Assembly: GCA_002841275.1 (NCBI GenBank)
Contig: PHET01000009.1
Coordinates: 1-64,000 of the forward strand
From: Actinobacteria bacterium HGW-Actinobacteria-7
GTDB lineage: Bacteria; Actinomycetota; Coriobacteriia; Anaerosomatales; PHET01
DNA: 64,000 nt
Reading direction: 5' to 3'
Below are positions 3,761 through 46,011 of the stretch, in pieces. Both the position numbers and the translations under genes were made by a program. Under the pieces are notes generated by a model. That model saw only the letters and a program-made list of their open reading frames with translations. It was not told where the DNA came from and did not search any database. The first letter of the stretch is position 1; each line of letters begins with the position of its first letter.

Positions 3761-4333
3761 ATGGTTCTCTCGGACCGTACGATCAAGCTCGAAGTCGCCA
3801 AGGGACGCATAGTCATCGCCCCGCTAGATTCGGACGACATCCAGCCCTCGAGTGTGGATCTGCATCTGGGGGCCGACTTCCAGGTGTTCCGTAATTCCCG
3901 CTATCCCTATATCAATCCTGCCACTGAGCAGCCCGGACTGACCGAGTCGGTCACCACGTCCGTCGAGGAGCCATTCGTGCTTCACCCCGGCGAGTTCGTT
4001 CTGGGTACAACGGTGGAGCGCATTGGACTGCCTTCGGACATTGTTGGCAGACTTGAGGGGAAGAGTTCGTTGGGCCGTCTGGGCCTGTTGATCCATTCGA
4101 CCGCGGGCTATGTCGACCCGGGTTGGGACGGAAACCTCACTCTCGAACTGTCCAACGTCGCGAACCTTCCCATCCTGTTGGTGCCGGGTATGGCGATCGG
4201 GCAGATCTCCTTCTCGCTGATGACCACGCCTGTAGACCGGCCGTATGGACATGTGGAGCTGGGAAGCAAGTATCTCGGGCAGACCGTTGCCACTCCCAGC
4301 AAGATGCATCTCAACTGGCCCAAAGAGCGATAA
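3761..4333 (+). CDS. dcd: dCTP deaminase, probably bifunctional Dcd-Dut
   Basis: Converts dCTP toward dUMP for thymidylate synthesis. The 190-residue protein belongs to the Dcd/Dut trimeric family, with the phosphate-binding G100-KSSLGR stretch and the catalytic glutamate E129 in LTLELSN. The HSTAGYVDPGW segment (112-122) resembles the actinobacterial and archaeal bifunctional enzymes, which both deaminate dCTP and cleave dUTP, more than E. coli Dcd. That dual activity is inferred from similarity. The start is ATG 3761 after an AGGGGGCT ribosome site; a GTG one codon upstream is also possible. It lies 85 bp after nrdJ and may share its transcript. Confidence 0.93.
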   Translation: MVLSDRTIKLEVAKGRIVIAPLDSDDIQPSSVDLHLGADFQVFRNSRYPYINPATEQPGLTESVTTSVEEPFVLHPGEFVLGTTVERIGLPSDIVGRLEGKSSLGRLGLLIHSTAGYVDPGWDGNLTLELSNVANLPILLVPGMAIGQISFSLMTTPVDRPYGHVELGSKYLGQTVATPSKMHLNWPKER

Positions 4334-4399
4334 CTGCGGCTGAGTCGAAGGACTCCGACGAGCGCCATAACAGCTTCGAGTGACCTCGTGGGACATCTG

Positions 4400-4424
4400 G
4401 CGTGGTGGCGTGCGAGCACCACGC
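4400..4424 (+). terminator. Stem-loop after dcd
   Basis: An 8-bp perfect stem (GCGTGGTG and CACCACGC) with a 9-base loop lies about 70 bp downstream of dcd. It has no T-run. A TAGAAT hexamer at 4428-4433 directly after it could be the -10 element of the next gene, though no good -35 was seen. Confidence 0.5.
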
Positions 4425-40406: not shown

Positions 40407-42176
40407 ATGCTTGACGCACGATATTCGATGCGATCGCATACTGCAGGTTCTTTGAACAAGGCGACCGTCGGCGAGACGGTTCGACTCACCGGATGGGTCG
40501 GCAAGCGGCGCGATCACGGCGGGCTGATCTTCCTCGATCTGAGAGACCGGTCCGGCATAGTCCAGTGCACGTTCGACCCTGATGCTTCCGGCGCGGCGTT
40601 CGTGGTGGCCGAGCAGGTTCGGCCCGAGTGGGTTGTCATGCTCGATGGCGTTGTCCGTGAACGCCCGGAGGGCACCCTGAACCCCGCGATGCCGACGGGT
40701 GAGATCGAAGTGATCATCACCGCCGCGACCGTATTGAACCGCTCAGAGACGCCGCCGTTCGAGATCGAGGCCGGTATTGACACTGATGAGCTCACTCGGA
40801 TGAAGTGGCGGTATCTCGATATCCGCCGTCCCGAGGTGGCTGCGGCACTGGTGCTGCGCGACCGGGTCTCGCAGCGCTTCCGCAAGTCTCTGGAGACACG
40901 CGGCTTCATAGAGGTCGAGACGCCCATCTTGGGACGATCGACCCCTGAGGGTGCGCGCGACTTCATCGTGCCCAGCAGAATGAGCCCGGGCAAGTTCTAT
41001 GCGCTCCCACAGTCTCCGCAGTTGTTCAAGCAGCTTCTGATGGTGGGGGGCATCGAGCGCTACTACCAGATCGCGAGATGCTTCCGCGATGAGGACCTGA
41101 GGGCCGATCGTCAGCCCGAGTTCACGCAGATCGACATCGAGATGAGCTTCGTCGAGGTGAACGACATTCTGCAGATGATGGAAGACGTGATGAGGGAGAT
41201 CATGCACGAGGTCGGCCATGATCTCCCGGTTCCGCTGCCGCGCATGACGTGGCACGACGCCATGGATCGTTTCGGTTCTGACAGGCCCGACACCCGTTTC
41301 GGACTCGAGCTTGTGGACCTCTCGGGAGTGTTCGCGTCGAGCGAGTTCAAGGTCTTCGCAGGTGCGCTGTCCTCCGGCGGAGTCATCAAGGCCATAACCG
41401 CCACCGGCGCGGGCGACTGGAGCCGCAGCCGTATCGATGCCCTCAACCAGCTGGCTATCGATTCGGGCGCCAAGGGCCTTGCATGGGTCGCATTCACGGG
41501 TGACGGCGAGGTGAAGAGCCCGGTCTCCAAGTTCTTCTCGGCAGAGGAGATGGAGGCGCTCAGGCTCGCGACCGGAGCGAAGGCCGGCGACCTGGTCTGC
41601 ATGGTCGCCGATGCGCGCGCAACCGCCAACGAGGTCCTCGGAGTGCTGCGTTTGCGCCTGGCCGATGAGCTGGGCATCGAGCGTACCGGTTTCGATACTC
41701 TCTGGGTCGTCGACTTCCCCATGTTCAAGTACGACGCGGGGGAGGATCGCTGGGCGGCGAACCACCACCCGTTCACCTTGCCGTTTGCAGAGCACGAAGA
41801 GCTCGTCGAGACCGATCCCGGTGCCGTGCTCAGCTACGCCTACGACCTCGTCATGAACGGTCTGGAAATCGGTGGCGGGACCTTGCGTATCCACAATCCC
41901 GAGCTGCAGTCCCGAGTGCTTCGCCGGCTGGGACTCGAACAAGACGAGATCACCGAGAAGTTCGGGTTCCTCATCGAGGCTCTGTCGTTCGGTGCCCCCC
42001 CTCACGGTGGTATCGCACTTGGTCTCGACAGGCTCGTGATGCTGTTGGCCGGTTCACAGTCGATTCGCGATGTCATCGCGTTCCCAAAGACATCATCGGG
42101 CGCGGACCCCATGACGCAGGCTCCGGATGTGGTTTCAGCGCGGCAGCTCAAAGACGTACACCTGCGAGTGGACTGA
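40407..42176 (+). CDS. aspS: Aspartyl-tRNA synthetase, probably non-discriminating
   Basis: Charges tRNA-Asp. The 589-residue bacterial-type enzyme has the OB anticodon domain, motif 2 (RCFRDEDLRADRQPEFTQ), the GAD insertion, and motif 3 with GLDRLVMLLAG. In the anticodon domain the segment is KRRDHGGLIF with H37. E. coli-type discriminating enzymes have Leu at this spot, while non-discriminating bacterial enzymes such as that of Pseudomonas aeruginosa have His. This suggests that it also charges tRNA-Asn and relies on a GatCAB amidotransferase elsewhere. GGAAGG precedes ATG 40407; Met at 40428 is the alternative start. Confidence 0.95.
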   Translation: MLDARYSMRSHTAGSLNKATVGETVRLTGWVGKRRDHGGLIFLDLRDRSGIVQCTFDPDASGAAFVVAEQVRPEWVVMLDGVVRERPEGTLNPAMPTGEIEVIITAATVLNRSETPPFEIEAGIDTDELTRMKWRYLDIRRPEVAAALVLRDRVSQRFRKSLETRGFIEVETPILGRSTPEGARDFIVPSRMSPGKFYALPQSPQLFKQLLMVGGIERYYQIARCFRDEDLRADRQPEFTQIDIEMSFVEVNDILQMMEDVMREIMHEVGHDLPVPLPRMTWHDAMDRFGSDRPDTRFGLELVDLSGVFASSEFKVFAGALSSGGVIKAITATGAGDWSRSRIDALNQLAIDSGAKGLAWVAFTGDGEVKSPVSKFFSAEEMEALRLATGAKAGDLVCMVADARATANEVLGVLRLRLADELGIERTGFDTLWVVDFPMFKYDAGEDRWAANHHPFTLPFAEHEELVETDPGAVLSYAYDLVMNGLEIGGGTLRIHNPELQSRVLRRLGLEQDEITEKFGFLIEALSFGAPPHGGIALGLDRLVMLLAGSQSIRDVIAFPKTSSGADPMTQAPDVVSARQLKDVHLRVD

Positions 42177-42186
42177 GCGGTCGCTG

Positions 42187-42216
42187 TTGTTTTGGGCACC
42201 CTGCGAGCGCTACACT
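42187..42216 (+). promoter_or_regulatory. Promoter of 6S RNA gene
   Basis: TTGTTT (42187-42192), 18 bases, TACACT (42211-42216). Transcription should start near 42223, at the base of the predicted 6S closing stem. Confidence 0.6.
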
Positions 42217-42222
42217 TGCGAT

Positions 42223-42396
42223 AGGCTTCGCCTTGCCAGCGGCCCGGCTCATACGGTCGAACCAACATCTCTCTTTCGGGAGCCTCACATTTCGTGGCAG
42301 ACAGGGATCCCTGATTCAGGGGGAAGCTGGAAGTCGCGGTGCGGGCACCCACCTGCTGAGGCAGGTTCACCCGTCGGGCTATGGCAGGGCGGGGCG
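42223..42396 (+). ncRNA. ssrS: 6S RNA
   Basis: A roughly 174-nt RNA in the 246-bp gap between aspS and the lipoprotein gene. Its ends pair: CGCCTTGCCA (229-238 of the 42-kb block) with TGGCAGGGCG (382-391). The 3' half has the GCACCCACCT...AGGTTCACCC block seen in many 6S RNAs, with an ACCTGC-TGAG-GCAGGT hairpin. The large central bubble lies between (about 42260-42290). 6S RNA binds the housekeeping RNA polymerase holoenzyme and curbs transcription in stationary phase. The location next to aspS and rarA is the same as that of 6S-1 in Bacillus and other Firmicutes. Ends are approximate. Confidence 0.78.
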
Positions 42397-42422
42397 TAAA
42401 CGTCGCAGTTGGAGGCAGGAGC

Positions 42423-43007
42423 ATGCGCAGACTAGTCGTAGCATTTGTCGTAGCAGGGCTGGCGTTCTCGCTTGTCGGATGTGGTGGAGGGGGCGATGCA
42501 CCCGCGGCTGAGACCCCGGCCGTTGTTCCCGATGCATTCGCACCATCCGGCGCTCCTGCAGAGCCTGTCCCCGACTACTCCGCCGAGGAGACGGCGACCT
42601 TCGAGCTGTTTCCGATGGGCGAAGACGTCCCGAAGACCGTCTCGGACAGGCTCGCCGAGAAGCAGCCGATGGCACTTCTGTTCGTGGACTCCGCCCAGAA
42701 GGACAGCGATGACTTGACGGCCGAGGTCAAAGCCGTTGTTGAGGAGAACAAGGGACTCATCGATCTTCTTGTCTACGATGTCGGCAAGTACTCCGGCGTG
42801 GACAAAGACGGGCGGATCACAATTGATGAACAGCAACTCAATGAAGACCCGAAGGCACAGGAATCGGTAGTGCTTGCTCGGGCGCTCGGTGTGAATTTCT
42901 CGCCATACGTCATCATCGTGGATGACCAGGGATACATCATCTACCGGCACAGTGGCTACGTTGATTCGGGCCTCCTCGAGCGCCAGGTGCAGCGTGTGAC
43001 TGAGTGA
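42423..43007 (+). CDS. Thioredoxin-fold lipoprotein without CxxC
   Basis: A 194-residue lipoprotein. The signal peptide ends in LVGC (C20), followed by a Gly/Pro/Ala-rich linker (to about residue 50). The domain then looks thioredoxin-like: LLFVDSAQKDSDD in the place of the active-site helix, DLLVYDVGKYSG, GVNFSPYVIIVDDQG with the cis-proline region, and a last helix. The catalytic cysteine pair is absent, so a redox role is unlikely; it may be a binding domain. GGAGGCAGG precedes ATG 42423. It overlaps rarA by 4 nt and may share transcription with the 6S gene. Confidence 0.82.
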   Translation: MRRLVVAFVVAGLAFSLVGCGGGGDAPAAETPAVVPDAFAPSGAPAEPVPDYSAEETATFELFPMGEDVPKTVSDRLAEKQPMALLFVDSAQKDSDDLTAEVKAVVEENKGLIDLLVYDVGKYSGVDKDGRITIDEQQLNEDPKAQESVVLARALGVNFSPYVIIVDDQGYIIYRHSGYVDSGLLERQVQRVTE

Positions 43008-44299
43008 CGGTTCACGTGCAGTCCCTCTTTGACGAAGATGAGAAGAAGGCGCGTGCTGCCGTTGCGCCGCTCGCTGCTCGTATGAGGCCCAGAACACTCG
43101 ACGAATTCGTTGGTCAGGGCAAGGCGGTCGGCGAGGGCACGTGGCTGCGCAGGGCAATCCAAAACGACGCTCTCTCGTCTGTTGTGCTGTTCGGTCCGGC
43201 CGGGACGGGAAAGACGAGCCTCGCGCGAATCGTCGCCGACGCAACGAACGCTCACTTCGAAGAGGTCTCTGCGGTCACATCCGGCGTTGCGGATCTGAGG
43301 CGGGCTATCGAGGCCGCCACCGAGCGTCTGGCTATGAACGGACGCCGGACGATTCTGTTCATCGACGAGATTCATCGCTTCAGCAAGTCCCAGCAGGACG
43401 CGTTGTTGCACGCCGTGGAGGACAGGATCGTGGTTCTCATAGGTGCAACCACCGAGAACCCGTTGTTCGAAGTGAATGCGCCCCTGGTCAGCCGCTCGCG
43501 TGTGATTGAGCTTGAGTCACTTTCCGATGAAGATGTTTCCAAGCTGCTTGATCGCGCCTTGAGTGATGAGCGCGGTCTGTCCGGAGCGATGGAACTCGCT
43601 GACGCTGCGCGCGAGGCGATAGTTAGAAGTGCTGGCGGAGATGCCAGAGTCGCCCTGACGACGCTCGAACTCGCCGCGGAGTGCGTGACCTCCGCTGCTG
43701 GGCAAGCGCCGCGCATCACTCTGGAGCAGGTCGCCGAGGCAAGCCCGTCGCGGATACTCCCGTACGACAAGAACGGTGATGTTCACTACGATGTGGTGAG
43801 CGCTTTCATCAAGTCCATGCGAGGCAGCGATCCCGATGCGGCGGTGTACTGGCTTGCCCGCATGCTCCATGGGGGTGAGGACCCGAAGTTCATCGCTCGC
43901 CGGATGGTCATCCTGGCGTCCGAAGACATCGGAAATGCAGATTCCCAGGCGCTGCTCATCGCGGATGCTGCTTTTCGCGCCGTTGAGACAATCGGGTTGC
44001 CCGAGTGCCGAATCGCTCTCTCACAGGCCGCGATCTACCTGGCTTTGGCTCCCAAATGCAATGCGGAGTACGTGGCGATCGATGCTGCACTCGCTGAGGT
44101 CAACAACGGACCCGCGCGCCGTGTCCCCAACCATCTCAGGGATCGTCATCGACCCGGTTCCGACAATTACGCCAGCTATGTGTATCCACATGACCATCCT
44201 GCCGAGGCAGCTGTTCAGGAATACCTGCCTGAAGGTCTGAGCAGGGGAGACTTCTACAGACCACGACATTTGGAAGGCGGAGCCACCGGGCCGGAGTGA
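43004..44299 (+). CDS. rarA: Replication-associated recombination protein RarA
   Basis: A AAA+ ATPase of the RarA/MgsA/WRNIP1 family that acts at stalled replication forks. The 431-residue protein has MRPRTLDEFVGQ, Walker A GPAGTGKT (64-71), Walker [16 protein letters not shown], sensor GATTENP, and the C-terminal tetramer domain with YDKNGDVHYD, MLHGGEDP and SEDIGNAD. GTG 43004 overlaps the upstream stop. Position after aspS and 6S RNA mirrors Firmicutes. Confidence 0.95.
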   Translation: MTVHVQSLFDEDEKKARAAVAPLAARMRPRTLDEFVGQGKAVGEGTWLRRAIQNDALSSVVLFGPAGTGKTSLARIVADATNAHFEEVSAVTSGVADLRRAIEAATERLAMNGRRTILFIDEIHRFSKSQQDALLHAVEDRIVVLIGATTENPLFEVNAPLVSRSRVIELESLSDEDVSKLLDRALSDERGLSGAMELADAAREAIVRSAGGDARVALTTLELAAECVTSAAGQAPRITLEQVAEASPSRILPYDKNGDVHYDVVSAFIKSMRGSDPDAAVYWLARMLHGGEDPKFIARRMVILASEDIGNADSQALLIADAAFRAVETIGLPECRIALSQAAIYLALAPKCNAEYVAIDAALAEVNNGPARRVPNHLRDRHRPGSDNYASYVYPHDHPAEAAVQEYLPEGLSRGDFYRPRHLEGGATGPE

Positions 44300-44406: not shown

Positions 44407-44823
44407 GTGGACGTGCTTCAGATCGTGCTCGTTGCGGTACTTGTCCTGGCCGGCGCGCTTTGTGGCGTGGCGGTGTGGGCCCTGCGTGATCTGGTCGTGA
44501 CTTCCCGGTCCCTTCGCCTGACGTCCGAGCAGGTTCGTTCTCGTCTCGTTCCATTGCTCGACAAGGCCGATGTCACGGTGGACGCTGTCAACGTCGAGCT
44601 GCTTCGTCTTGACGGCATCATCACGCAGTTTGAGGACACTTCATCTCGCGTGAGCCACGCCTCGGCGACCATCACCGATATCGTAAATGCGCCCGCGGGG
44701 CTGGTGAGTGAGGCGGCGTTGCGAATGAGGCAGGCGTGGAAGGATCGCAAACGCACTCAGTCAGCCGGCGGATCGTCCGAGCCGCACCACAACCGTGATG
44801 AAGAAGGCGACCAGATTTCGTGA
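44407..44823 (+). CDS. DUF948-like membrane-anchored protein
   Basis: A 138-residue protein with an N-terminal span (about 4-24) and a helical cytoplasmic or exposed part with repeats like TVDAVNVELLRLDGIITQFE, typical of DUF948-type proteins. The C-terminus is charged and disordered. GGAGG lies 4 bases before GTG 44407. The following gene begins about 17 bp later. DUF948 genes near alaS are common in actinobacteria. Function unknown. Confidence 0.75.
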   Translation: MDVLQIVLVAVLVLAGALCGVAVWALRDLVVTSRSLRLTSEQVRSRLVPLLDKADVTVDAVNVELLRLDGIITQFEDTSSRVSHASATITDIVNAPAGLVSEAALRMRQAWKDRKRTQSAGGSSEPHHNRDEEGDQIS

Positions 44824-44840
44824 GCGCGACCGGAGGTACT

Positions 44841-45236
44841 ATGTCTAGTGATCAGGTGATCGTGACCGTTCCGGCCATGGGGGCGTATGCCAAGACCCTG
44901 AGGATGACTGCGGCGGTATTGGCGGCCCGATTGGGCATGAGCTACGACGAAGTCGAGGATGTACGACTCGCTGCAGAAGAGGCATTCGTCTACGCGGCTG
45001 ACACGGTGGCGGAGGGTGAGCCACTTTCGTTTGTCTTTACCGTAGGCAGCGATGAACTCGGCCTCGCTGTGGGACTGGGATCAGAGCGACTCACCGACGA
45101 AGAGGTCGAACGCCGCGCTTCATATGCGACCTTCATTCTCGAGTCTGTGTGCGACACCTTTGAACTCGTGAGTGACGAGTTCGGCGTTGGTTCTTTGCGG
45201 CTCTCCAAGCGCTCGGAGTGCGTCGATGGTCTATAG
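44841..45236 (+). CDS. RsbW-like anti-sigma factor serine kinase
   Basis: A 131-residue GHKL-type ATP-binding protein. The N-box is in VRLAAEEAFVYAADT (about 43-57), weaker than the standard EAxxNAxxH, and the G-box is hard to see (LAVGLGSERL). It probably holds the sigma factor encoded next, as RsbW holds SigB. ATG 44841 follows GGAGG; GTG 44820 is the alternative. It overlaps the sigma gene by 11 nt. No RsbV-like antagonist is adjacent, so the switch partner must be elsewhere. Confidence 0.78.
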   Translation: MSSDQVIVTVPAMGAYAKTLRMTAAVLAARLGMSYDEVEDVRLAAEEAFVYAADTVAEGEPLSFVFTVGSDELGLAVGLGSERLTDEEVERRASYATFILESVCDTFELVSDEFGVGSLRLSKRSECVDGL

Positions 45237-46011
45237 TCGTCGCCCTGCCAAGCAGACGCGCAGATTGACCTGGGACAAGCCCCACACCAAGGAGCTCTTT
45301 CGCCGGTATCGTCTTGAGGCCGACGAGGACGCGCGCGACGAGCTGATCACGATGTACCTCAACTTGGTGAAGTACCTTGCGAGCCGGTTCAGGAATCGCG
45401 GCGAACCCATCGATGACCTGATCCAGGTCGGCACCATCGGTCTCATTAAGGCTATCGATCGGTTCGACATCGAGCGCCAAGTGGAGTTCACCACGTACGC
45501 CACACCCACGATTGTCGGTGAGCTCAAGCGGTACTTCCGAGACAAGGGGTGGGCGATCAAGGTTCCTCGTCGCCTGCAGGAGCTGTCGTTCAAGGTGAAC
45601 CAAGCGGTGGACGCACTCACCCAGCGGCTTCAGCGTTCTCCGTCAATCGCCGAGATCGCTGAGTATCTTGAAGTGACAACGGAAGAAGTTCTTGAGGCGA
45701 TGGAAACCAGCGAAGCATACAACTTCGTATCGCTCGAGAACGATCGCAGCGGGGATGGCGCTGAGACATTCAGCATCTTGGAGTACGTGGGTAAAGACGA
45801 TGTGTTGATGCTCGCGGTCGACGACAGAACCACACTCCAGGCGGCTTTCAAAGAACTGAGTCCGCAAGAACAGCGGGTCATGTACCTTCGCTTCTTCCGA
45901 GGGCTCACGCAGACCGAGATCGCGCGGCAGCTCGATATTTCCCAGATGCAGGTGTCCCGACTGCTGCGAAGGACTCTGAGAATCCTGCGCGAGAATATCG
46001 TGAGGGACTAG
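45226..46011 (+). CDS. SigB/SigF/SigG-family RNA polymerase sigma factor
   Basis: A 261-residue group 3 sigma factor. Region 2 shows YLASRFRNRGEPIDDLIQVGTIGLIKAIDRF and FTTYATPTIVGELKRYFRD. Region 3 starts at IKVPRRLQEL. Region 4 has LSPQEQRVMYLRFFRGLTQTEIARQLDISQMQVSRLLRR. It belongs to the stress/sporulation type controlled by partner switching. GGAG precedes ATG 45226, inside the RsbW-like gene. Confidence 0.95.
   Translation: MVYSRRPAKQTRRLTWDKPHTKELFRRYRLEADEDARDELITMYLNLVKYLASRFRNRGEPIDDLIQVGTIGLIKAIDRFDIERQVEFTTYATPTIVGELKRYFRDKGWAIKVPRRLQELSFKVNQAVDALTQRLQRSPSIAEIAEYLEVTTEEVLEAMETSEAYNFVSLENDRSGDGAETFSILEYVGKDDVLMLAVDDRTTLQAAFKELSPQEQRVMYLRFFRGLTQTEIARQLDISQMQVSRLLRRTLRILRENIVRD

Follow-up and report, generated by a model that had tools for sequence, protein, structure and literature searches.

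An analysis of the window, the 64,000-nt stretch of contig PHET01000009.1, identified a single-copy gene for 6S RNA (ssrS type), about 177 nt long, at 42222-42398 on the forward strand; the bacterium belongs to the class Coriobacteriia. The gene lies 46 nt downstream of aspS and carries its own promoter, a reading to which a probability of about 94% is given. The 6S RNA of other bacteria imitates an open promoter and restrains RNA polymerase. Such RNAs have been described as widespread except in Actinobacteria (PMC9130861, 2022), and a later account knows of no identified example in this group except a single disputed candidate from Streptomyces (PMC11077062, 2024). The window locus itself is an ordinary, well-supported 6S RNA gene. 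What goes beyond the routine is that the whole sampled class, together with other classes of the phylum, carries 6S RNA, contrary to the published statement. The original prediction had placed a 6S RNA gene at 42187-42396 and had called actinobacterial 6S RNAs poorly described; the identity is confirmed, and the literature indeed calls these RNAs absent or unproven. The gene is found at this location with corrected coordinates, the RNA extending over about 42222-42398 and position 42187 being the first base of the -35-like box TTGTTT (Table 1).

Table 1. Positions in the window of the 6S RNA gene, its structural elements and its neighbors.
Feature	Position	Strand	Basis or remark
aspS (aspartyl-tRNA synthetase)	40407..42176	+	Pfam tRNA-synt_2, GAD and OB-fold domains
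-35-like box TTGTTT	42187..42192	+	weak, 3/6; spacer of 18 to the -10; read from sequence
-10 element TACACT	42211..42216	+	TANNNT kept in own-order loci
6S RNA	42222..42398	+	approximate ends, inferred from closing stem and -10
Closing stem P1, 5' arm	42225..42238	+	minimum-free-energy fold; covariation
Predicted pRNA template	42253..42266	+	pRNA 5'-GUUGGUUCGACCGU opposite C42266; prediction only
Helix P2, 5' strand GAACC (also pRNA template)	42259..42263	+	Rfam alignment and minimum-free-energy fold
Central bubble, 5' side	42264..42277	+	unpaired in Rfam and RNAalifold consensus structures
Apical arm, GGGAGCC to GGGCACCC	42278..42350	+	compensatory pairs, helices 3-6
3' central-bubble hairpin ACCUGC/GCAGGU	42351..42366	+	97-100% of cells pair at base in 100 sequences
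Helix P2, 3' strand GGUUC (overlaps hairpin)	42364..42368	+	Rfam alignment and minimum-free-energy fold
Closing stem P1, 3' arm	42382..42395	+	minimum-free-energy fold; covariation
Thioredoxin-like lipoprotein gene	42423..43007	+	signal peptide with lipobox; weak Pfam Thioredoxin_2, 21.8 bits, under cut-off 27
rarA (MgsA/RarA AAA+ ATPase)	43004..44299	+	Pfam MgsA_C and AAA

The identity of the RNA was established with a search of 801 nt around the locus against all 4227 Rfam families. The 6S RNA model RF00013 matched at 42227-42399 on the forward strand over model positions 1-187 of 187, with 42.0 bits and an E value of 5.3e-7, and this was the sole match of the model in the whole 2.53-Mb genome (E = 4.0e-7). 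The region thus gives a significant, full-length match to the 6S sequence-structure model, a mark of family membership, and the scan of all 4227 families at E values up to 10 added to it just one chance microRNA match. The score lies under the curated gathering cut-off of RF00013 (46.4 bits), which is a reporting threshold for automatic annotation and not a biological feature; orthologues from the same family reach or pass it, with 46.4 bits in G001 and 51.7 bits in G002. Because of this score, a standard annotation run misses the 6S gene of the window, for which just 23S and 5S rRNA are listed. The rRNA in question, the 3' end of a 23S rRNA and a 5S rRNA gene, occupies positions 1-744.

The slight shortfall against the cut-off could be taken to suggest that the 6S gene has here decayed into a non-functional relic, which is scarcely credible. 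The core motifs show no departure from the nearly invariant positions of the order, the fold is far better than that of shuffled sequences, and the locus scores 169.5 bits with an order-specific model, although the window was in the training set of that model. A functional 6S RNA gene therefore remains the preferred reading.

The RNA structure was examined by folding and by covariation. The region folds at -89.1 kcal/mol, compared with a mean of -70.6 for dinucleotide-shuffled sequences (z = -4.2), and none of 200 shuffles folded as well. RNAfold by itself closes part of the central bubble with local pairs, so the bubble was taken from the Rfam and alignment structures instead. In a MAFFT alignment of relatives from the window's own order, compensatory changes were found in 19 of 44 pairs, and 86 doubly changed cells kept their pairing compared with 33 in shuffles; none of 500 shuffles reached any of the observed measures, and sliding the partners destroyed the signal. 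Helix P1 accounts for compensatory changes in 7 of its 13 pairs (alignment A1). Across classes, 39/44 pairs were compensatory among 100 sequences in an alignment fitted to the model. When 18 sequences of other orders were aligned separately with MAFFT, 9 of 28 pairs were compensatory, and P2, the apical arm and the 3' hairpin recurred. The rod of closing stem, central bubble and apical arm that is expected of a 6S RNA is thus backed by covariation.

P2, which lies beside the bubble, and the 3'-bubble hairpin are both present in nearly all sequences, as in members of the family. P2 is kept in most of the 100 sequences, with pairs that are chiefly invariant or changed on one side, so that this helix is supported by conservation and is not proven by covariation. 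All elements described in the original prediction (closing stem, 3' block, central bubble and promoter) are present in the sequence. That prediction was to be abandoned if a sub-threshold score came together with an absence of covarying pairs in relatives; the score is sub-threshold (42.0 versus 46.4), but the strong covariation, in 19/44 pairs, keeps the prediction in place.

The gene has the length expected of a 6S RNA gene of its own (about 160-200 nt) and a housekeeping-type promoter with a kept -10 element and a weak -35. Generic scans of the region returned neither a promoter site nor a terminator, and conservation across relatives was used instead. In 27 of 29 own-order loci, a TANNNT box precedes the closing stem by 13-16 nt. 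At the other end, the window has no 3' U-run, defined as at least 5 T in the 8 positions after the closing stem. Such a run is present in 22/35 loci of other classes and in 16/26 loci of the class's other orders, compared with 9/39 in the window's own order, differences that G+C content may partly explain. The RNA ends about 25 nt upstream of the start codon of the lipoprotein gene, into the leader of which it extends. Since the usual U-run is often missing in the order, read-through into the lipoprotein-rarA genes is possible; as a guess, transcription may continue into these genes, and the 3' end may come from processing.

The gene neighborhood is kept across the order. Of 37 own-order loci, 33 have aspS no more than 600 nt upstream of 6S (median 67 nt), and all have a homologue of the thioredoxin-like lipoprotein gene downstream; in 35 of them rarA follows in the same orientation, at a median of 607 nt from 6S. 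The lipoprotein gene is possibly cotranscribed with 6S and rarA. The placement of the gene between aspS and rarA in the original prediction therefore holds as a neighborhood, while the lipoprotein gene intervenes, so that 6S and rarA are not direct neighbors in the window. Downstream of rarA, positions 44820-46011 of the window hold a candidate RsbW-like anti-sigma ATPase (weak HATPase_c_2 match, under cut-off) together with a factor of the sigma-70 family that has regions 2, 3 and 4; the pair resembles a stress-sigma module, separated from 6S by a few genes.

The same data bear on whether the element is instead a cis-acting leader of the lipoprotein-rarA genes and not a free RNA. The short distance to the lipoprotein start codon, the lack of a U-run in the window and in most loci of the order (present in 9/39), and the constant presence of the lipoprotein gene (37/37) would be consistent with a leader. 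Elsewhere, however, 6S is followed by other genes, such as tRNA-Ala(CGC), or has a divergent rarA in Eggerthellaceae-type loci; moreover, structure and motifs are those of 6S, and cotranscription is compatible with a 6S role. A leader is accordingly judged highly improbable, and a 6S RNA gene is retained as the explanation of the locus.

The arrangement varies between loci. In other classes, aspS lies within 600 nt upstream in 27/35 loci and rarA downstream in 12/35. The distance between aspS and 6S is 2.4-3.7 kb in loci L071, L072, L123 and L124, and in L123 and L124 the 6S gene lies directly upstream of rarA. In Eggerthellaceae-type loci, rarA is divergent from 6S, 131-309 nt apart. Six loci from other orders of the Coriobacteriia (L153, L160, L161, L162, L163 and L167) have a tRNA-Ala(CGC) gene about 55-145 nt after 6S on the same strand, near positions 3800-4400, which recalls the tRNA-Lys gene after 6S in Streptococcaceae (PMC8414754). 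In Bacillus subtilis, bsrA is flanked by aspS and yrvM (PMC11077062), and both in this species and in lactic acid bacteria rarA is found near 6S (PMC8414754). Based on these two observations, the aspS-6S-rarA order is likely an old order shared with Bacillota, in agreement with the original prediction, which took the order known from Firmicutes as a hint of old shared order.

A template for product RNA (pRNA) was predicted on the 5' side of the bubble. Its CCAAC motif is nearly invariant within the order, and reading the template from C42266 gives a predicted pRNA 5'-GUUGGUUCGACCGUAUGAGC, with GG at positions 4/5 and an A adjacent to the start; known pRNAs also have an early GG and an A beside the start (PMC8414754). 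P2 and the ACCUGC/GCAGGU hairpin share GGU at 42364-42366, so that the two compete in part and a switch is possible on paper. From what is known of the family, the RNA would fold into a rod whose central bubble gives it the look of an open promoter, and it would occupy the housekeeping sigma-RNA polymerase holoenzyme (sigma-70/sigma-A) as growth slows. The bound polymerase would then use the 5' bubble strand as a template and initiate a pRNA opposite C42266 (5'-GUUGGUUCGACCGU...). Growth of this pRNA would unwind P2 (GAACC/GGUUC), the freed 3' strand of P2 would complete the hairpin, and the refolding of the RNA would release the polymerase. In B. subtilis, the pRNA unwinds P2 and stabilizes the 3'-bubble hairpin (PMC8876501), and a release path of this type likely also applies here.

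The distribution of 6S RNA was surveyed in the order, the class and the phylum. RF00013 matched in 53 of 61 genomes of the own order, 37 of them above the cut-off. A model built from 29 own-order 6S sequences, called R1, coincides with the RF00013 match in the window and finds all 100 loci tested. It adds a full match in G003 and matches cut by contig ends in G004, G033 and G049, bringing the count to 57/61; with these four matches, it was no longer held that 6S is absent from all 8 genomes of the order in which RF00013 had no match. In G012, G018, G027 and G044 nothing convincing was found; these are fragmentary assemblies, three of them with a completeness of 64-74%, and G012 consists of 520 contigs. 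Trained on the own order only, R1 finds 6S in 10/10 named Coriobacteriia genomes, with Gordonibacter sp. Marseille-P2775, Adlercreutzia caecimuris B7 and Paraeggerthella hongkongensis among the carriers, and it finds none in two named Actinomycetes genomes, Propioniciclava tarda and Propionibacterium sp. The 6S matches of G376, G230 and G113 have the contig coordinates of those in the three Coriobacteriia genomes just listed, and Gordonibacter is placed by taxonomy in the Coriobacteriia, which identifies the class.

Using a broader model, R2, 149 of 396 genomes of the phylum, from 25 families, were found to match, once each. All 51 sampled Coriobacteriia genomes are included, as are 98/345 genomes (~28%) of other classes, usually with the match right after aspS. 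Among 39 RF00013-negative genomes of other classes, R1 gave a clear match in G075 and G102 only, and a weak one in G071. Family f30, which is not part of the class, is divided: a 65-bit 6S with a convergent aspS occurs in G086, and G071, G101 and G112 are without a clear 6S, which makes this family a candidate place for recent 6S loss. A metagenome-assembled genome titled Aeromicrobium sp. (JADIIM010000053.1) has an AspS 75% identical to that of the window and a 166-bit 6S of the order's type; its label is probably wrong, and the genome resembles Coriobacteriia.

None of 44 matches from the class's other orders exceeds the cut-off with RF00013 alone. The Rfam cut-off thus hides the 6S gene in the sampled Coriobacteriia outside the own order, which may explain the published absence from actinobacteria. 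Genomes above the cut-off may already figure in the tables of Rfam, and 6S genes of Coriobacteriia may have been listed before. A literature search on 6S RNA in Coriobacteriia, including Eggerthella and Collinsella, which did not cover Wehner et al. (2014), returned nothing relevant; PMC2864571 mentions added 6S representatives, which are placed in its supplement. The balance tips slightly towards a 6S gene after aspS being ancestral in Actinomycetota, retained throughout the Coriobacteriia and in several further classes, and lost in Actinomycetes, with Ms1 or other RNAs taking over. If so, the published absence of 6S holds for only part of the phylum, and the timing and manner of the replacement of 6S by Ms1 become testable. 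The carriers include gut species (Gordonibacter pamelaeae, Slackia and Adlercreutzia), and cultured actinobacteria are thus available for a direct comparison of sigma-bound 6S with core-bound Ms1.

Among known systems, Ms1 of Actinomycetes is similar in being a 6S-like rod from actinobacteria that binds RNA polymerase (PMC9130861), and differs in binding the core enzyme, in its greater length and in its genomic location. The locus might be expected to encode an Ms1-type RNA, the 6S-like RNA described from mycobacteria and Streptomyces that associates with the RNA polymerase core in the absence of sigma, as the genome is actinobacterial and Ms1 rather than 6S has been reported in the phylum (PMC9130861, PMC11077062). 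The length of ~177 nt is that of 6S, compared with ~300 nt for Ms1 (PMC11077062); the 6S core motifs and the pRNA template are conserved; and the locus resembles that of 6S in Bacillota. At E values up to 10, no 6S-like family other than RF00013 matched among the 4227 Rfam families. An Ms1-type RNA is thus considered very unlikely, and assignment to 6S is preferred. Str11 (scr1506) of Streptomyces coelicolor is a small RNA with a 6S-1-like neighborhood and a 6S-like predicted fold, which was tested and showed no RNA polymerase binding (PMC9130861).

The closest likeness in form is to 6S-1 RNA (bsrA) of B. subtilis, which shares the rod, the central bubble and a 3'-bubble hairpin that the free RNA already contains, as well as a pRNA (predicted here) that starts with GUU and has an early GG, an upstream aspS and a nearby rarA (PMC8876501, PMC11077062, PMC8414754). 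In contrast to the B. subtilis type, the 3' U-run is often absent here, the score is just under the Rfam cut-off, and the downstream gene encodes a thioredoxin-like lipoprotein instead of yrvM. The pRNAs also differ, GUUGGUUC being predicted here compared with GUUCGGUC in B. subtilis 6S-1, and the GG at positions 4/5 is placed as in Gram-negatives, unlike in B. subtilis 6S-1.
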